Assembly (NCBI GenBank): GCA_033762255.1
Contig: JANRLT010000060.1
Location: forward strand, 62,001 to 126,000
Reading direction: 5' to 3'
DNA from: Pirellulales bacterium
GTDB taxonomy: Bacteria > Planctomycetota > Planctomycetia > Pirellulales > JALHPA01
DNA: 64,000 nucleotides
Positions 44,102 through 53,193 of the stretch are shown piece after piece. Under the pieces are notes generated by a model. It had not been told where the DNA came from. It saw nothing but the letters and a program-made list of their open reading frames with translations, and did not search any database. The position numbers were made by a program, and so were the translations under genes. How positions within the stretch are numbered: the first letter of the stretch is position 1; each line of letters begins with the position of its first letter.

Positions 44102-45139
44102 ATGCCCCGGGCGCTCATCGGTTTAGGTGCCAGTTTGGGGGACCGCGCGGCCACCTTAGCCAGCGCGCTGGATGGGTTGCGGGCCTACTCGACCAATACA
44201 CCACTTTGCTCTAGCCGCTTTTTCGAGACAGCCCCCTTGGGGGGGGATGGCTGGCAACCCTCGTATCTCAATGCCGCGGCGGTGATTGATACCAGCCTGC
44301 CAGCCATGGATTTGCTGCGGCAGCTACAGCTGATTGAGCACCAACATGGTCGGGTGCGAACCGCCGGAAAAGTCTGGGAACCGCGTACGCTGGACCTGGA
44401 TTTGCTGCTATTCGATCAAGAAATTCTGTTGACACCCACCTTTACCGTACCACACCGGTGGTTGGCCTTTCGCGATTTTGCGCTGGAGCCGGCGGTGGAA
44501 ATAGCGGCTGACTGGCGGCATCCCATTTTTGGATTGACTCTATGGGAACTGCGCAATCGTCTGCGGGATGCCGCGGGGTGGTTGCTGATTACCGGCGATG
44601 ATGATGAGCAGCTATTTTATCTGGCAATTTCCCTGGCCTTTCACGATGTCGACCAATCCGGCAAGGAGGTAATTGTGAATTTGCCCTTCGAATGCGAGGA
44701 GCTTATCCATACAGATCTTGTGGAAATCAATGCGGCTAGAAGTGTAGTAAAGGATTACCAGCTAAAAATAAAAGCGGGGGTGCCCACGCGGCGAATCACC
44801 GCCTGTTTACCAAATTCATCTCAGTTGACGAAATATGATTGGTTTCAGTTGATTGTCACCCCCCTGGGTGCGCATTTAATTTTTCCCATCATGCGTGCAG
44901 AACTCCCCTTCCCCACGGCGCGGCTCTGTTTATACAAAGATGCAGAAGCGATGGATGCCGCCTATTTGCAAGCATCATGCCGAAGCCGGGATTTGCCAGC
45001 GGAGCTGGCAACCTGGGATGAGAAGTCCGGAGACGGGTGCGTTATTCCGACATTGTGGATTGCCGCTGAGGACCAGGACCAGATCATTCGAGAAGCCGCC
45101 ACCCTGTGGGAGGCGATCTGCGGCTCTGCAGTGACTTAA
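44102..45139 (+). CDS. folK: HPPK (6-hydroxymethyl-dihydropterin pyrophosphokinase) with an unknown C-terminal domain
   Basis: Residues 1-160 are a full HPPK: ALIGLGASLGDRAATLASAL, the YLNAAAVIDTSLPAMDLLRQLQLIE segment and the catalytic VWEPRTLDLDLLLFDQ, with FTVPHRW. It adds pyrophosphate to the pterin alcohol before its joining to p-aminobenzoate. A further 185 residues (from GWLLITGDDDEQLFYLAISL to the end at 345) are not part of HPPK. They have alternating strands and helices and PTLWIAAEDQDQIIREAATL at the end, and I do not recognise them. The gene opens a run of coenzyme genes to 53193. Confidence 0.88.
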   Translation: MPRALIGLGASLGDRAATLASALDGLRAYSTNTPLCSSRFFETAPLGGDGWQPSYLNAAAVIDTSLPAMDLLRQLQLIEHQHGRVRTAGKVWEPRTLDLDLLLFDQEILLTPTFTVPHRWLAFRDFALEPAVEIAADWRHPIFGLTLWELRNRLRDAAGWLLITGDDDEQLFYLAISLAFHDVDQSGKEVIVNLPFECEELIHTDLVEINAARSVVKDYQLKIKAGVPTRRITACLPNSSQLTKYDWFQLIVTPLGAHLIFPIMRAELPFPTARLCLYKDAEAMDAAYLQASCRSRDLPAELATWDEKSGDGCVIPTLWIAAEDQDQIIREAATLWEAICGSAVT

Positions 45140-46834: not shown

Positions 46835-48547
46835 ATGAATGCCGGATATGTCTCGCCAGAACAATCGGCCAAAACACCACCAGTAAAAGAAAAGCTCGGC
46901 CCGATTGCCCGCAACTTGGGGAATATCGTGCTGTTCTGGATGTTGTTTTTGGTGGGGGCAATACTAATCACACAATATTATGTTGAAGATCAGACCGCTA
47001 TAGCCAATCTGGTGTTGCAGGCCGGGACCGCCCTGATTGTCCTGACGATTTGTCTTTATTCGCTGGCACAATCCAGTCTGGGCCTGTGGCGATTTTTTCC
47101 CACCTTGCTAACAGCCGCTGGACTGGGGGTCTTTTTTTACTTTTATCAGTATGCCGGGAATACCGGGAATATGCGGTTGATCTTTGTCCGCCGAGGGCAA
47201 TTGCCCCCCCCCGCCAAGGTGGCGGATCTTAACCCCGCCCAGCAAGCCCCCGTCGCCGAGCCTCCCCGCAGCGGCAATGACTTTCCCCAGTTTTTAGGCC
47301 CCCGGCGCGATCAAGTCTTGACCGGCACGCGCATCAATCCCGTTTGGACCGCCAATCCGCCGAAGCTGATGTGGAAGCATCCCGTCGGCCAAGGGCTAAC
47401 GGGATTTGCCGTGGTGGACTGGCGGGCGATCACGATGGAACAGCGTGAGTTGCAGGAATGCGTGATTTGCTACCACGTGCGGACGGGGGAAATCTTGTGG
47501 GTGCACCAGCATCCCAACGAGCATTATCAGTTCAATGTCGGTTGGAATGGTCCCCGCTCGACGCCGACCATTCATAACGGCCGCGTTTATGCCCAGGGGG
47601 CGGCGGGCAAGCTGGTCTGCCTGGATTTACAAACCGGTGATTTGCAGTGGGAAAAGGAGATTCTCAACGCCGATCCCAAGAATATTCCCGAATGGGGCAA
47701 AGCGAACTCGCCGCTGATCGTGGATAATCAATTGATCGTGGTGGGGGGATTGCGCACCGACGACCCGGAAAAGTTTTTACGCTCGCTGATTTCTCTTGAC
47801 CCCGTCACGGGAAACGAACTCTGGGCCGTGGATGGTCATTTTGGCAGTTATGCCTCTCCCGCCGTGGCGACGCTGGGGGGGGTGCGGCAAATTATCATTG
47901 TCAATCAAAATTGGATTGATGGGCATGACCTGCAAACGGGAGCACTGCTATGGAGTTATCCCTGGCCTGGTAGAACCAACGCCGACGCCAACACCGCCCA
48001 GGCGTTCGCGGTCAATGAACAGCAAGTGTTTGTTTCCAAGGAATACGGCGTGGGGGCCGCGCTGTTTAATGTTCACAAAACGGAGGATGACAAATGGCGC
48101 GCCACGCTAGAGACCGTTAATGACCTGGCCGGTTGGGCCAAGCCCGTGCTAAAGACCAAGGTCAACAATGTCAGCCGCGTCGGCGAGCATGTCTATGGAT
48201 TTAACAACGAAGTATTGGAATGTGTGGAGTTAGCCACGGGCAAGTCCCTCTGGAGAAAGCGGGGGGATTTTGGCAGCGGACAATTGCTGGTGGTAGAGGA
48301 TAAACTTTTGATCCAGACCGAAGATGGCCAAGTCGTCCTGGCCGCCGCCAACCCGCAAAAGTACCAAGAGTTTGGCCGGTTTCAGGCGATTACCGGCGAA
48401 CCGTGTTGGAATCCGCCAGCCTTTGCCGCGCCGTATGTGTTAATTCGCAATTGGCAAGAAGCGGCCTGTTATGAACTGCCGTGCGAATCAGTTGATCCCG
48501 CGGATGATAAGCAGGTCGATCCCCCGGCAGCTGTCGAACAGAAGTAA
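46835..48547 (+). CDS. PQQ-like beta-propeller protein, BamB-like
   Basis: The 570-residue product has two N-terminal hydrophobic segments (residues about 30-55 and 62-95) and a linker. An eight-bladed-type propeller of PQQ-enzyme repeats follows, such as GKLVCLDLQTGDLQWEKEI, LISLDPVTGNELWAVDG, DLQTGALLWSYPWPG and VELATGKSLWRKRGD. The W-x-x-x repeats are those of BamB and PQQ dehydrogenases, but no enzymatic residue set of an alcohol dehydrogenase is seen. Planctomycetes have many membrane-anchored proteins of this kind, and their role is not known. It probably faces the periplasm. Confidence 0.85.
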   Translation: MNAGYVSPEQSAKTPPVKEKLGPIARNLGNIVLFWMLFLVGAILITQYYVEDQTAIANLVLQAGTALIVLTICLYSLAQSSLGLWRFFPTLLTAAGLGVFFYFYQYAGNTGNMRLIFVRRGQLPPPAKVADLNPAQQAPVAEPPRSGNDFPQFLGPRRDQVLTGTRINPVWTANPPKLMWKHPVGQGLTGFAVVDWRAITMEQRELQECVICYHVRTGEILWVHQHPNEHYQFNVGWNGPRSTPTIHNGRVYAQGAAGKLVCLDLQTGDLQWEKEILNADPKNIPEWGKANSPLIVDNQLIVVGGLRTDDPEKFLRSLISLDPVTGNELWAVDGHFGSYASPAVATLGGVRQIIIVNQNWIDGHDLQTGALLWSYPWPGRTNADANTAQAFAVNEQQVFVSKEYGVGAALFNVHKTEDDKWRATLETVNDLAGWAKPVLKTKVNNVSRVGEHVYGFNNEVLECVELATGKSLWRKRGDFGSGQLLVVEDKLLIQTEDGQVVLAAANPQKYQEFGRFQAITGEPCWNPPAFAAPYVLIRNWQEAACYELPCESVDPADDKQVDPPAAVEQK

Positions 48548-48641: not shown

Positions 48642-49439
48642 ATGATGGAACCCACCGCGGGATCGCTAGCAAATAAAATCGCCGTCGTCACCGGCTCCTC
48701 CAGTGGGATCGGCAGGGCAACGGCGCTGGCCCTGGCCGGCGCTGGGGCGCACGTGCTGGTCCATGCCGCGCGAAATCTCTCCGGTGCCCAGGAGACCGCC
48801 GCGACGATTCAACGCCTGGGTCGGCAGGCCACGGTGCTCTTGGCGGATTTGCAAACGCACGCCCAGCAGGACCGCTTTGTCGAGGAAGCGTGGGCCTGGC
48901 GGGGACGGGTCGATCTTTTGGTCAATAACGCGGGGGCGGATGTCCTGACCGGCGCGGCGGCAAAGCTGGGGTTTGAGGAAAAGCTAGAACTATTGTGGCG
49001 GGTCGATGTGACGGCCACGCTGCGCCTCAGTCGGCAAATCGGACGGCAAATGCGCGACGCGGGAGGGGGCGTGATCATTAACACCAGTTGGGATCAGGCG
49101 GAATATGGCATGGCGGGGGATAGTGGTGAATTGTTTGCCGCGACCAAAGGAGCGGTGGCGGCATTGACGCGCAGCTTGGCACGTTCCCTGGCGCCGTTGG
49201 TGCGGGTCAACGCGGTCGCCCCGGGTTGGATCAAGACTGCCTGGGGAGAAACCGCCAGCGCGCCTTGGCAGACCCGCGCCGCGGCGGAGGCGCTCTTAAA
49301 CCGCTGGGGAACGCCCGAGGATGTCGCCCGGGCGACGCTGTACTTATGCTCTCCCGCGGCGGAGTTTATCACCGGCCAAGTTTTGCCGGTGAACGGCGGT
49401 TACCGCGGCGCGGCTGATTTTGTGGAAACGCGCGATTGA
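48642..49439 (+). CDS. SDR-family protein lacking the catalytic tyrosine
   Basis: The 265-residue product has the NAD(P)-binding GSSSGIG at 18-24, the NNAG at 95-98, an active-site-type Ser149 in IINTSWD, and the C-terminal APGWIKT and VLPVNGGYRG segments of classical FabG-like reductases. At the Y-x-x-x-K site it reads FAATK, with Phe165 for Tyr and Lys169 kept. Without the tyrosine, normal reduction is unlikely. It may bind cofactor or act in another way, or may use a different residue. It directly precedes the dihydropteroate synthase-like gene, so a role in pterin or C1 chemistry is possible. The ATG at 48642 or 48645 is the start. Confidence 0.85.
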   Translation: MMEPTAGSLANKIAVVTGSSSGIGRATALALAGAGAHVLVHAARNLSGAQETAATIQRLGRQATVLLADLQTHAQQDRFVEEAWAWRGRVDLLVNNAGADVLTGAAAKLGFEEKLELLWRVDVTATLRLSRQIGRQMRDAGGGVIINTSWDQAEYGMAGDSGELFAATKGAVAALTRSLARSLAPLVRVNAVAPGWIKTAWGETASAPWQTRAAAEALLNRWGTPEDVARATLYLCSPAAEFITGQVLPVNGGYRGAADFVETRD

Positions 49440-49495
49440 GTTAAACTTTAGTCATACCCTGTCTCTCTCACTTGTTGGTCCGCGCGCGGATTTTC

Positions 49496-50959
49496 ATGCA
49501 CATCCACTTTGTCACCGGTTGCCTGGCCGAACCCGCGCTGCGCGGGGTGTTGGGCGCATTAGCTCCGCATGCGGGGTTTGCGTATTCGGTGCAGGTGTTA
49601 CCCATCACCGTGGCCGCGCTCATGACGCCAGCGTGGATTGCTCCCCGGCTGGTGGTGCCCCCCGAGGCTGATCAAGTGTTGCTCCCCGGCTATTGCGGCG
49701 GTGATCTGGCTCCGCTGAACGCGGTCTGCGCCGTCCCGGTCGTGATTGGCCCGCGCGACCTGCGCAAGCTGCCGCAGTTTTTTGGCCAAGACCCACATCA
49801 GGATTATGGCGGTTATAACATCCAAATCTTGGCCGAAATCAACCATGCCCCGCGCTTGGCAAGGGCAGAGATCTTGGCCATGGCGCGGCAACTGGCGGCG
49901 GATGGGGCGGACCTGATTGACCTGGGCTGCGACCCAAATCACATTTGGACCGACGCGGGGGATACGGTGCGGCGGCTACGGGACGCGGGTTTGCGGGTCT
50001 CGATCGACAGCCTGGAACCGGCAAACATTGCTCCAGCGGTCGCGGCGGGGGCGGAACTGGTGTTGTCCGTCAATAGCTCCAATCGCCAGCACGCCGCGGA
50101 TTGGGGGTGCGAGGTCGTGGCGATTCCCGACCAACCGACGGACATGGATAGCCTCGACCGGACGGTGGAATATCTGGCAGCGCGGAATGTGCGGCTGCGG
50201 CTGGATCCCATTTTGGAACCGATCGGCTTTGGCTTTGCCGCCAGTTTGCAACGCTACGCCGTCGCGCGACAACGGTATCCCGACGCGGAAATGCTCATGG
50301 GTATTGGCAATCTTACCGAATTGACGGATGCCGATTCCGCCGCGATCAATTTGCTGCTTTTGGCCTATTGCCAAGAACTGGGGATCCGCGGCGTCCTGAC
50401 CACGCAAGTGATCAACTGGGCGCGTGGCAGCGTGCGCGAATGCGACCTGGCCCGCCGGGCGGCGTATTATGCCGTGGAAAAGCGGACCCTGCCAAAACAT
50501 TTGGAACCGCGACTGGTCCCTTTGCGTGGCGATCCTCCCCGGCCCTTCGGCGAAGAAAACCTCATCCAGTTGGCCGCCAGTCTGCGGGATAATAACTACC
50601 GCATCTTTGCCGAAGCGGGGCAGATCCACCTGCTCTGGGCGGGGCACCACCTGAGCGGGGGCGATCCATTTGAGTTATTTGCGCGGCTTTTAGACACGCG
50701 GCCGACAAATATTGACGCGGGACACGCGTTTTACCTGGGTTATGAATTTTGCAAAGCGGTCACGGCCTTGACATTGCATAAACATTACGAGCAAGACACC
50801 GCGCTCAACTGGGGTTATTTGACAAAAGAGGAACAACACCACCGTCTTAGCCGTCGTAGCGCGCGCGAACGCCTCGAACAGCGGCAAAGCGAGGCGGAAC
50901 AAGCGGCTCCTCCCCTGTCTGATACGGCGGCGGATGCGGAATCCCGGGGCATGTTATGA
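49496..50959 (+). CDS. Dihydropteroate synthase-like protein (DUF6513, methanopterin type)
   Basis: The 487-residue protein has an N-terminal domain (residues 1-115, MHIHFVTGCLAEPALRGVL) of the DUF6513 kind. A TIM-barrel related to dihydropteroate synthase follows: EINHAPRLARAEILAMARQL, ADGADLIDLGCDPN, GLRVSIDSLEPANIAPAVAAGAELVLSVNSSN and RLRLDPILEPIGFGFAASLQ. Such proteins (TIGR00284-like) accompany the tetrahydromethanopterin C1 pathway in archaea, methylotrophs and planctomycetes, and probably build the pterin core of that cofactor. The stop overlaps the pabB start by ATGA. A true folP is not seen in the window. Confidence 0.85.
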   Translation: MHIHFVTGCLAEPALRGVLGALAPHAGFAYSVQVLPITVAALMTPAWIAPRLVVPPEADQVLLPGYCGGDLAPLNAVCAVPVVIGPRDLRKLPQFFGQDPHQDYGGYNIQILAEINHAPRLARAEILAMARQLAADGADLIDLGCDPNHIWTDAGDTVRRLRDAGLRVSIDSLEPANIAPAVAAGAELVLSVNSSNRQHAADWGCEVVAIPDQPTDMDSLDRTVEYLAARNVRLRLDPILEPIGFGFAASLQRYAVARQRYPDAEMLMGIGNLTELTDADSAAINLLLLAYCQELGIRGVLTTQVINWARGSVRECDLARRAAYYAVEKRTLPKHLEPRLVPLRGDPPRPFGEENLIQLAASLRDNNYRIFAEAGQIHLLWAGHHLSGGDPFELFARLLDTRPTNIDAGHAFYLGYEFCKAVTALTLHKHYEQDTALNWGYLTKEEQHHRLSRRSARERLEQRQSEAEQAAPPLSDTAADAESRGML

Positions 50960-52407
50960 CGCTTCCCCGCGTGATTGAGCTAAATCCCCCACCCGATGTC
51001 GCGGCTTGTCTGGAACGGTTTCGGACATTGCCCTATTGCCTGTTACTTGACAGCGCGCGGCGGCATGCGCGGTTGGGCCGGTACTCGTTTTTGATGGCGG
51101 ATCCCTTGCGAGTGTTGCATCTGGAGTCCGTGAATAATTTGAACGGTCGCGAGGCAAACGCGGATTTATTTGCCCAGGCCCAGCGATTGGGAGAGCAATA
51201 TCCGGCGAAGGATGAGGAGCCGGGCGTCGTCCCTTTTACCGGCGGATTGGCCGGATTTTGCAGTTATGATCTCAATCGCGCGCTGGAACGACTCCCCGCG
51301 CCCCGGTTCGACGAGTTTCAGCTTCCCCTGGCCGTACTGGGCGTGTATGACGTGGTTCTGGCATGGGATCATGTTGCCGGTAGGGCATGGTTGATTTCGC
51401 GGGGTTGGCCCCCGGAGGGTGGTCCCGGCAGTGCGCAGCGGGCAACGGATAGATTACGCCAGTTTCAAAAGATTTTGTCAGCCGCGCGAGCCATGCCCGA
51501 TGTGCAATCGCCAGCCGCGGCCAATATTTCCGACCTAACGATTGCCGACTTGTGTATTGCCGGTCCGCTGCCCGGTTATCCGATGGTGTGGAGTAATTTT
51601 AGTCGCGAGCAATATACAGGGGCTATCGAGCAAGCCCGCGAGTACATTTGCGCGGGAGATATTTTTCAGGTCAATCTCGCTCAGCGATTGCTAACACCCG
51701 TGCGCGAACCAGCGTGGCAAATGTATGCCCGATTGCGGATGGCGAATCCCGCGACCTTTGGGGGATATTTTGATTTTGGCGCGGGGCAGATCTTGAGCGC
51801 GTCGCCCGAGCGTTTTTTACGGGTGCGGCGGGGTAAGGTCGAAGCGCGACCCATCAAAGGGACCCGCCCCCGGTCGCCGTGGCCCGAGGCGGATCTCTTT
51901 GCCGGCGATGAATTATTGGCTAGTGAAAAGGATCGGGCGGAAAACGTGATGATCGTGGATCTTTTGCGAAACGACTTATCCCGCGTCTGCACGGCGGAGA
52001 GTGTGCGGGTGGCGGAATTATGCCGCTTGGAATTGTACGAGTACGTCCAGCATTTGGTGTCGGTAATCAACGGCGAACTGGCGCCTGGCCAAAGCGCGTG
52101 GGATTTGCTGCGCGCGGCCTGGCCGGGGGGCTCGATCACGGGCGCGCCCAAGGTTCGCGCGATGGAGATTATCACAGAACTGGAATGTGTCGCGCGGGGG
52201 CCTTATTGCGGAGCGCTGTTGTACGCGGGGGCCAATGGCGACATCGACGCCAACTTGCTCATCCGCACGTTGATTGTCAGTCGGGGGTGGGCGCAATTTC
52301 CCGTGGGGGGTGGAATCACCACGGCCAGCGATCCAGCGACGGAATATACCGAAACCTGGCATAAGGCAGCGGGATTGTTACGCGCGCTGGAGTTTAATGC
52401 GCAATAG
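50956..52407 (+). CDS. pabB: Aminodeoxychorismate synthase component I
   Basis: The 483-residue enzyme converts chorismate to 4-amino-4-deoxychorismate with ammonia from the partner subunit. The chorismate-binding domain starts at about residue 225 with REQYTGAIEQAREYICAGDI-FQVNLAQRL. The PIKGT motif has the nucleophilic Lys301 typical of PabB rather than the alanine of anthranilate synthase. ENVMIVDLLRNDLSRV and GGSITGAPKVRAMEIITELE follow. Its start overlaps the previous stop by four bases, so translation is coupled. The glutaminase subunit follows at 52531. Confidence 0.92.
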   Translation: MTLPRVIELNPPPDVAACLERFRTLPYCLLLDSARRHARLGRYSFLMADPLRVLHLESVNNLNGREANADLFAQAQRLGEQYPAKDEEPGVVPFTGGLAGFCSYDLNRALERLPAPRFDEFQLPLAVLGVYDVVLAWDHVAGRAWLISRGWPPEGGPGSAQRATDRLRQFQKILSAARAMPDVQSPAAANISDLTIADLCIAGPLPGYPMVWSNFSREQYTGAIEQAREYICAGDIFQVNLAQRLLTPVREPAWQMYARLRMANPATFGGYFDFGAGQILSASPERFLRVRRGKVEARPIKGTRPRSPWPEADLFAGDELLASEKDRAENVMIVDLLRNDLSRVCTAESVRVAELCRLELYEYVQHLVSVINGELAPGQSAWDLLRAAWPGGSITGAPKVRAMEIITELECVARGPYCGALLYAGANGDIDANLLIRTLIVSRGWAQFPVGGGITTASDPATEYTETWHKAAGLLRALEFNAQ

Positions 52408-52530: not shown

Positions 52531-53193
52531 ATGCTCCTGTTGATTGATAACTACGACAGCTTCACCCATAATCTCGCGCGTTATTGCCGCCGACTGGGGG
52601 TGGACGCGCACATCGCGCGGAATGATAGCCTGTCGCTAGCGCAAATTCGCGCGCTGGCACCCCGGGCGATTTTGCTTTCTCCCGGGCCGTGCGGACCCGC
52701 CCAAGCGGGAATCTGCCTCGAGCTGGTCCGCGAGCTGCATCCGACGACCCCGATTCTGGGGGTTTGCCTGGGGCATCAGGTTATTGCGGCGGCCTTGGGG
52801 GGAAACATTGTGCGGGCGGAGCAACCGCGGCATGGGCGGCAATCGCGCATCAGCCATTCAGCCAATGGTATTTTTGCCGGTTTGCCAGCGGAATTTTTGG
52901 TGGGCAGATATCATTCGCTCATAGTCGAGCGGCAGTCCTTACCTCCGTCACTACAGATTACCGCCACCAGCGACGAGGGCGTGATCATGGGCCTGGCGGG
53001 AGTGGGGTTTCCGACGTTCGGCGTGCAATTTCATCCGGAGTCGATATTAACCGAGCAGGGTTACCCGTTACTGGCTAATTTTTTGCGGATGGTGGGGATG
53101 GGGGGATCGAATGTCGACGTTAGTAACTTTCATGAAGGACCCGCGTTTGAATCGCAGAATTGGAAATTTCCCGCAGGACCGGTGACGTTTTAG
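52531..53193 (+). CDS. pabA: Glutamine amidotransferase subunit of aminodeoxychorismate/anthranilate synthase
   Basis: The 220-residue protein supplies ammonia from glutamine. It has LLIDNYDSFTHNLARYC, LSPGPCGPAQAGICLELV, the nucleophile Cys79 in LGVCLGHQVIAAALGG and the His-Glu pair in GVQFHPESILTEQGYPLL. It lies just after pabB, so it most likely serves p-aminobenzoate synthesis. In many bacteria the same subunit also serves anthranilate synthase. The tail beyond about residue 190 is variable. Confidence 0.92.
   Translation: MLLLIDNYDSFTHNLARYCRRLGVDAHIARNDSLSLAQIRALAPRAILLSPGPCGPAQAGICLELVRELHPTTPILGVCLGHQVIAAALGGNIVRAEQPRHGRQSRISHSANGIFAGLPAEFLVGRYHSLIVERQSLPPSLQITATSDEGVIMGLAGVGFPTFGVQFHPESILTEQGYPLLANFLRMVGMGGSNVDVSNFHEGPAFESQNWKFPAGPVTF

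Follow-up and report, generated by a model that had tools for sequence, protein, structure and literature searches.

An SDR-fold protein with an exchanged catalytic set belongs to the planctomycete tetrahydromethanopterin gene island and is a candidate dihydromethanopterin reductase

A gene for a short-chain dehydrogenase/reductase (SDR) in the DNA analyzed here, a stretch of 64,000 nucleotides from a Pirellulales bacterium (the window), is by its linkage to and co-occurrence with mch, mptG and a dihydropteroate synthase (DHPS)-like gene part of the tetrahydromethanopterin (H4MPT) biosynthesis island. Since three of the four catalytic residues are exchanged in this protein and its gene travels with those of H4MPT synthesis, the SDR is a good candidate for a missing step in making or maintaining H4MPT. 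Tentatively, we read it as a pterin-reducing enzyme of methanopterin synthesis, and most probably as a dihydromethanopterin reductase standing in for DmrA/DmrB, with a substrate proposed from sequence and gene context. We are more reserved about the wider claim that it could be a third, unrelated dihydromethanopterin reductase, with an Asp-Trp-Phe-Lys set suited to the dihydropterin C=N bond and a distribution across planctomycetes and at least one gammaproteobacterial lineage. Planctomycetes feature in the debate about the way in which C1 metabolism linked to H4MPT passed between archaea and bacteria. The enzyme of their last H4MPT step is not named in the accessible portions of PMC5020050 and PMC6193120, and the SDR offers a concrete, conserved candidate for it. 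A further gain would be an SDR subfamily whose catalytic set has been exchanged en bloc, which bears on what the Tyr is needed for.

The SDR gene runs from an ATG at 48642 to a stop codon ending at 49439 on the + strand (48642..49439) and codes for 265 aa. Its product is assigned to the SDR superfamily, with a classical fold, on the basis of the Rossmann fold in an AlphaFold2 model (mean pLDDT 93.4) and of its adh_short match. Pfam returned adh_short_C2 (1e-47) and adh_short (1.3e-40), the other matches being KR and HHH_5 (below cut-off). The best structural match of the model was the FabG 4jro (Z 34.0, rmsd 2.0 over 241 residues, 35% identity). With this and another FabG-type SDR, 2uvd (Z 33.7, 31% identity), the protein shares the fold, the TGxxxGIG motif and the catalytic Lys, but it carries Asp, Trp and Phe where they have the catalytic Asn, Ser and Tyr, and it has inserts near residues 102, 114 and 159. 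The first-pass annotation had described a FabG-like protein with Phe in place of the catalytic Tyr, and the TTT codon of Phe165 bears this out.

Two groups of known enzymes were compared with the protein. The pteridine reductases FolM, PruA and PTR1, which reduce dihydropterins with NADPH, have the SDR fold in common with it, and pterin-linked genes surround the window SDR. The motifs TGX3RXG and YX3K are given for these reductases in the available part of PMC13259868. We rejected membership in this group: the Arg of TGX3RXG is absent, with Gly at residue 22 in 90 of 90 sequences, and FX3K is found in 88 of 91 clade members, YX3K in only three. DmrA and AfpA/DmrB catalyze the very reaction proposed here for the SDR, although the families are unrelated; the accessible text of PMC6193120 has DmrA as DHFR-like and DmrB as a flavoprotein. 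With neither DHFR nor any flavoprotein family among its Pfam matches, the window protein is not of the DmrA type or of the AfpA/DmrB type.

Sites were assigned by alignment in a clade of 91 distinct sequences, taken from 102 loci and the window, and set against 75 ordinary SDRs from a scan of public genome contigs (among the matches listed). Asn is the fourth residue of the SDR catalytic set. In the 75 ordinary SDRs its site holds Asn (69), Asp (5) or His (1); the clade has Asp in 90 of 91 members (D122 in the window, codon 49005..49007, + strand). At the site of the catalytic Ser, ordinary SDRs carry Ser (73) or Thr (2), and all 91 clade members carry the Trp of the W150-D151 pair (49089..49094, +). 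These two exchanges had escaped the first-pass annotation. The Tyr of YxxxK, present in 75 of 75 ordinary SDRs, is replaced by Phe in 88 clade members (F165, 49134..49136, +), and three, L080, L196 and L118, have Tyr. The catalytic Lys is common to all 75 ordinary SDRs and all 91 clade members (K169, 49146..49148, +). Among the 52 orthologues of the order, window included, site 165 is Phe in 51 and Tyr in one, and W150, D151 and K169 are invariant. Such counts, when every ordinary SDR has Tyr, mean that Phe at this site is not a matter of chance. The classical set is therefore absent from the clade: two residues of the triad (Ser and Tyr) and one more of the tetrad (Asn) are exchanged jointly, as far as the alignment tells, and the cofactor motif is left unchanged. 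Because site 165 admits both Phe and Tyr and the W150-D151 pair is invariable, the alignment suggests that an aromatic ring, rather than a hydroxyl, is the conserved feature there. Further residues set the clade apart: R188, W196, T199 and D151 are each found in 91 of 91 members, and Trp201, Trp209, Trp222 and Arg212 are kept in 89-90 of 91; the Trp196 site and these last four hold mixed residues in the 75 ordinary SDRs.

The TGxxxGxG motif is present (G18, G22 and G24 in 90 of 90), and T17, G18, G22-I23-G24, D69, A97-G98 and K169 are kept at 95-100% in the clade. With its cofactor motifs intact, the protein looks like an active, rewired oxidoreductase. The exchange of both the Ser and the Tyr of the triad would also suit a protein that has no redox activity and acts in a structural or regulatory way, for instance as a partner of the DHPS-like protein, and another SDR is inactive as its Y167F form, going by the title of PDB entry 3itd. 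A purely structural role had been one of the options of the first-pass annotation; it loses ground because the protein retains its cofactor motifs and its catalytic Lys, and we regard a pseudoenzyme of this kind as very improbable. Nor does lack of the triad preclude activity, SimC7 being an active SDR without it according to the available part of PMC5039031. In the accessible portion of PMC7973133, FabG Y151F, and even a triple mutant, still turns over the natural ACP substrate, but not acetoacetyl-CoA. Since FabG Y151F still works on acyl-ACP, the loss of Tyr is, by analogy, no proof of new chemistry when taken alone.

In a quick tree, the SDR clade was separated from 14 outgroup SDRs with an SH-aLRT of 99. 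Orthologues were 47-67% identical to the window protein and paralogues at most 41%. The public genome-contig scan returned the W-D motif in only five of 80 loci (L115-L119, among the matches listed). One of them, L119 from a Gammaproteobacteria MAG, has 42% identity and the W-D...F...K motif. Because L119 is the outermost clade member on the quick tree and carries Phe, Phe at 165 would most simply be ancestral, Tyr having been regained a few times. On the same tree, Bythopirellula (Lacipirellulaceae; L115) falls among genomes of the window's order. The sequence of a Planctomycetaceae MAG (L118:2595-3377) has WDG, Tyr for Phe and a very long branch; no mch was found in its genome.

In the window, the next gene on the same strand encodes the DHPS-like protein (49496..50959, +), in agreement with the first-pass annotation. 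Its listed open reading frame starts at a TTG at 49472, the in-frame ATG at 49496 being the likelier start. The product matched DUF6513 above cut-off (5.3e-18), Pterin_bind at 24.9-25.6 bits against a cut-off of 25.5, PterinBD-DUF4346 below its cut-off and TIGR00284 at 148.1 bits, below the cut-off of 256.65. A pabB-like gene for aminodeoxychorismate/anthranilate synthase component I (50956..52407, +) overlaps it by 4 bases, and a glutamine amidotransferase subunit (pabA/trpG; 52531..53193, +) was recognized by family match. The SDR shares an operon with the DHPS-like gene and this pabB-pabA pair. The genome that carries the window (5.47 Mb) holds elsewhere a full-length FolP-like Pterin_bind match of 268 bits and a second strong match inside a 1238-residue frame, MetH-like to judge from its length. 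Given these other copies, the DHPS-like gene probably does not encode the DHPS of folate synthesis.

This arrangement recurs in relatives. In the window and in 33 of 51 order-level loci, the SDR start and that of a following same-strand DHPS-like gene lie no more than 1.5 kb apart; the other 18 loci have no following DHPS-like gene, and in four of these the contig ends within 1.2 kb downstream. Many order-level loci have pabB, pabA, a DUF447 gene and mptG downstream of the SDR. DUF447, which we take to be FMN-binding, is a rival redox candidate from the same island. Outside the order, 17 SDR loci were taken with wide flanks (L195-L211). A PTPS gene adjoins the SDR in five of them (L195-L198 and L201), a pterin-4a-carbinolamine dehydratase gene in four, and mch lies in the same locus in four; in several loci, the SDR stands away from pterin genes. 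The fullest island, L196, reads mch, RimK-like ATP-grasp, CitG-like, PTPS, SDR, pterin-4a-carbinolamine dehydratase, DHPS-like and pabB, and carries a Tyr form of the SDR. Gene order is similar in L195 and L198, and likewise in L197 except that the dehydratase is missing. Of note, the PTPS-family proteins next to the SDR at L197:5286-5786 and L196:8517-9935 have a C-E-x-x-H-G-H stretch, presumably the mark of PTPS-III type replacements of dihydroneopterin aldolase.

The dehydratase neighbors raise the thought of cofactor repair. The SDR and pterin-4a-carbinolamine dehydratase might together recycle a quinonoid dihydropterin to its tetrahydro form, by analogy with the recycling of biopterin by the dehydratase and dihydropteridine reductase. 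Such chemistry could also serve folate and would therefore explain why the SDR is retained without H4MPT. The two genes are adjacent in L195, L196, L198 and L204 (family match in L196 and L204, tblastn in all four). However, searching 71 loci and the window gave the dehydratase in only five loci, one of which (L212) has no SDR, and none was found in the 51 order-level loci or the window. We consider repair an improbable function.

The SDR and mch were then followed across genomes. In a phylum sample of 392 genomes, with the SDR called at E ≤1e-60, 48 genomes have the SDR and 50 have mch, and all 48 with the SDR have mch; 9 of these 48 SDR sequences were left out of the motif comparison above. 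The two mch genomes without SDR (G239 and G404) belong to one family. Counting good genomes only, the SDR occurs in 43 and mch in 45 of 217. This agreement is inflated by kinship, because most positives belong to one class. Further support comes from families f70, f72, f87 and f93 and from the Gammaproteobacteria MAG of L119 (genome G446), whose mch lies on another contig than the SDR, in an island with CitG-like, Fae, hydantoinase-like and pabB-like genes. Among the matches listed in the public scan, four of five clade genomes have mch, the exception being that of L118. Hence, the conservation of the replacement and the link to methanopterin genes, both raised in the first-pass annotation, are real, the link being wide in operons as well as in co-occurrence. 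The homologues do not show the pattern that would speak against it, namely a normal Tyr and no tie to methanopterin genes.

The order sample of 57 genomes, 52 of them with an SDR orthologue, reveals how far this link reaches. The SDR and mch are found together in 47 genomes, the SDR only in five, mch only in three and neither in two (G018 and G034). The mptG family model scored above cut-off in 8 of the 57 genomes and at E ≤0.001 in 50. All three mch-only genomes (G001, G023 and G028) are less than 90% complete; the DHPS-like gene, too, is missing from G023 and G028, and in G001 it is cut at the contig start. One SDR-only genome, G056, is 70% complete and has the DHPS-like gene and mptG, with no mch found. 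The remaining four, G019 and G035 of one genus and G042 and G053 of another, keep the SDR and have no mch, mptG or DHPS-like gene. Together with G056 and the genome of L118, they are the exceptions to the H4MPT linkage, and these four rule out an SDR bound strictly to H4MPT. A role in methanopterin synthesis is thus supported by linkage, but not as an exclusive tie.

We computed dN/dS over nine genome pairs. The G019/G035 pair gave 0.159 for the SDR and 0.153 for pabB, and six H4MPT-positive pairs gave 0.06-0.24 for the SDR. The NG86 ratio of G042/G053 was 0.149, but at a saturated dS of 3.2, and the G003/G038 pair gave no ratio. The SDR is under purifying selection without H4MPT genes in G019/G035, the sole well-measurable pair. 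As it is seemingly functional in these two genomes, its substrate there cannot be only an H4MPT intermediate.

That selection on the SDR continues in G019/G035 would agree with a function in folate or p-aminobenzoate metabolism, where the SDR would be either a partner of pabB/pabA or a substitute dihydrofolate reductase, its H4MPT link being secondary. Indeed, pabB directly follows the SDR in G019, G035 and G042, all without H4MPT genes (pabB comes after the SDR in L065, L071 and L052, three of the loci of the four H4MPT-less genomes, and the SDR stands alone in L042). A shift of this sort has been assumed by the authors of PMC8305020, in the part available, for methanopterin enzymes of haloarchaea that would have moved to tetrahydrofolate. 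Against it, no genome of the phylum sample has the SDR without mch, and G018 and G034, which have neither SDR nor DHFR, keep a full FolP-type gene. A strong FolP-like match was obtained in all nine genomes tested, including G019, G035, G042, G053 and the SDR-less G018 and G034, so that the SDR is seemingly dispensable for folate and folate synthesis seems not to need it. DHFR_1 and ThyA were scored over the 57 relatives, and DHFR_1 over the 392 genomes as well. ThyA makes a DHFR necessary; it was found only alongside DHFR_1, save for a weak partial hit in G042. DHFR_1 is lacking in 111 of 174 good SDR-less and 30 of 43 good SDR-bearing genomes of the phylum, an absence not specific to the SDR. 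The SDR as the missing DHFR was thus dropped as a candidate on these counts and on the pairing of ThyA with DHFR_1. Overall, a primary role in folate metabolism appears to be of low probability. As a separate observation, G018, which has no mch, mptG or SDR, carries immediately ahead of pabB a DHPS-like gene of 38% identity (L214, 7183-10196, minus strand); this gene is either a relic or one whose function has changed.

The reaction we favor is the reduction of a dihydropterin. In classical SDRs, the carbonyl oxygen receives its proton from the Tyr, the general acid; the loss of this Tyr is in keeping with a substrate that is protonated at another place. When a dihydropterin is reduced at C6=N5, the proton could come from water or an Asp, by analogy with PTR1 and dihydropteridine reductase. 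The SDR would accordingly act as an NAD(P)H-using and catalytically competent member of the planctomycete H4MPT island that reduces C6=N5 of 7,8-dihydropterins, above all that of dihydromethanopterin to give H4MPT. Hydride would be delivered to C6, and the proton on N5 may come from solvent or from the invariant Asp, in which case no Tyr would be needed; the conserved Trp and Phe residues could keep the pterin ring and the aminophenyl ring in place. Where H4MPT was lost, the enzyme might be used on folate or another dihydropterin.

According to the accessible portion of PMC6193120, the last reduction to H4MPT is carried out by unrelated enzymes in different bacteria, DmrA in some and AfpA/DmrB in others, and the DmrA lineage is almost exclusively alphaproteobacterial. 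The available part of PMC5020050 states that Afp (AfpA) was not recognized in planctomycetes. DHFR_1, a family that resembles DmrA and is expected to pick up proteins of its type, is missing from 37 of the 52 genomes of the order that have the SDR. With a step that is filled variously, an AfpA that was not recognized and a DHFR_1 that is often missing, a lineage-specific enzyme is the most economical explanation. G239 and G404, with mch and no SDR, have DHFR_1, which adds little because mch-less members of their family have it too. Within the open-licence papers, in the parts accessible, we found no tie of any SDR to H4MPT synthesis, and the available portions of PMC3505017 and PMC6787355 hold nothing on the SDR gene.

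An earlier step of the pathway could also be considered. By analogy with eugenol synthase (EGS), which acts via a quinone methide, the SDR might reduce the ribofuranosyl-aminobenzene unit at its benzylic carbon, opening it to the 1-deoxyribitol by way of an aza-quinone-methide, with the Lys activating the para-amino group. There would be no carbonyl to protonate, and the Tyr would therefore not be needed. This ring-opening step of the methanopterin side chain reportedly goes back to work by White and, to our knowledge, is needed by every H4MPT maker. However, the clade is almost only planctomycete among the matches listed, other bacteria and archaea being covered by one pattern-limited scan, and the SDR is kept where mptG is gone. 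In favor of ring-opening, the SDR shares its island with mptG and the DHPS-like gene. EGS and SimC7 are both SDRs that are active despite having no catalytic Tyr, and EGS relies on its kept Lys, K132A and K132Q having 0% activity, and stacks the aromatic ring of its substrate on the nicotinamide (accessible parts of PMC1991597 and PMC5039031). Their substrates, a plant phenylpropene and an angucyclinone, have no pterin link, unlike the window SDR. Ring-opening is, all told, an unlikely role for it, and reduction of dihydromethanopterin is the reading we retain.

Upstream of the SDR, the window contains folK, panC, a DUF309 gene and a PQQ/BamB-like gene. The folK-like HPPK domain protein (44102..45139, +) is a pterin gene product encoded nearby, not adjacent to the SDR; its HPPK match spans residues 6-135 of 345, and Pfam gave nothing for the C-terminal 210 residues. 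The PQQ/BamB-like beta-propeller protein (window positions 46835-48547) is conserved near the SDR operon, in 19 loci including the window. In most of 26 loci, a conserved protein of about 390 aa is encoded upstream of the SDR and on the other strand, as in L115:2959-4125, a copy with no Pfam match at 0.001. It contains a GYSLGE-like stretch reminiscent of acyltransferases.
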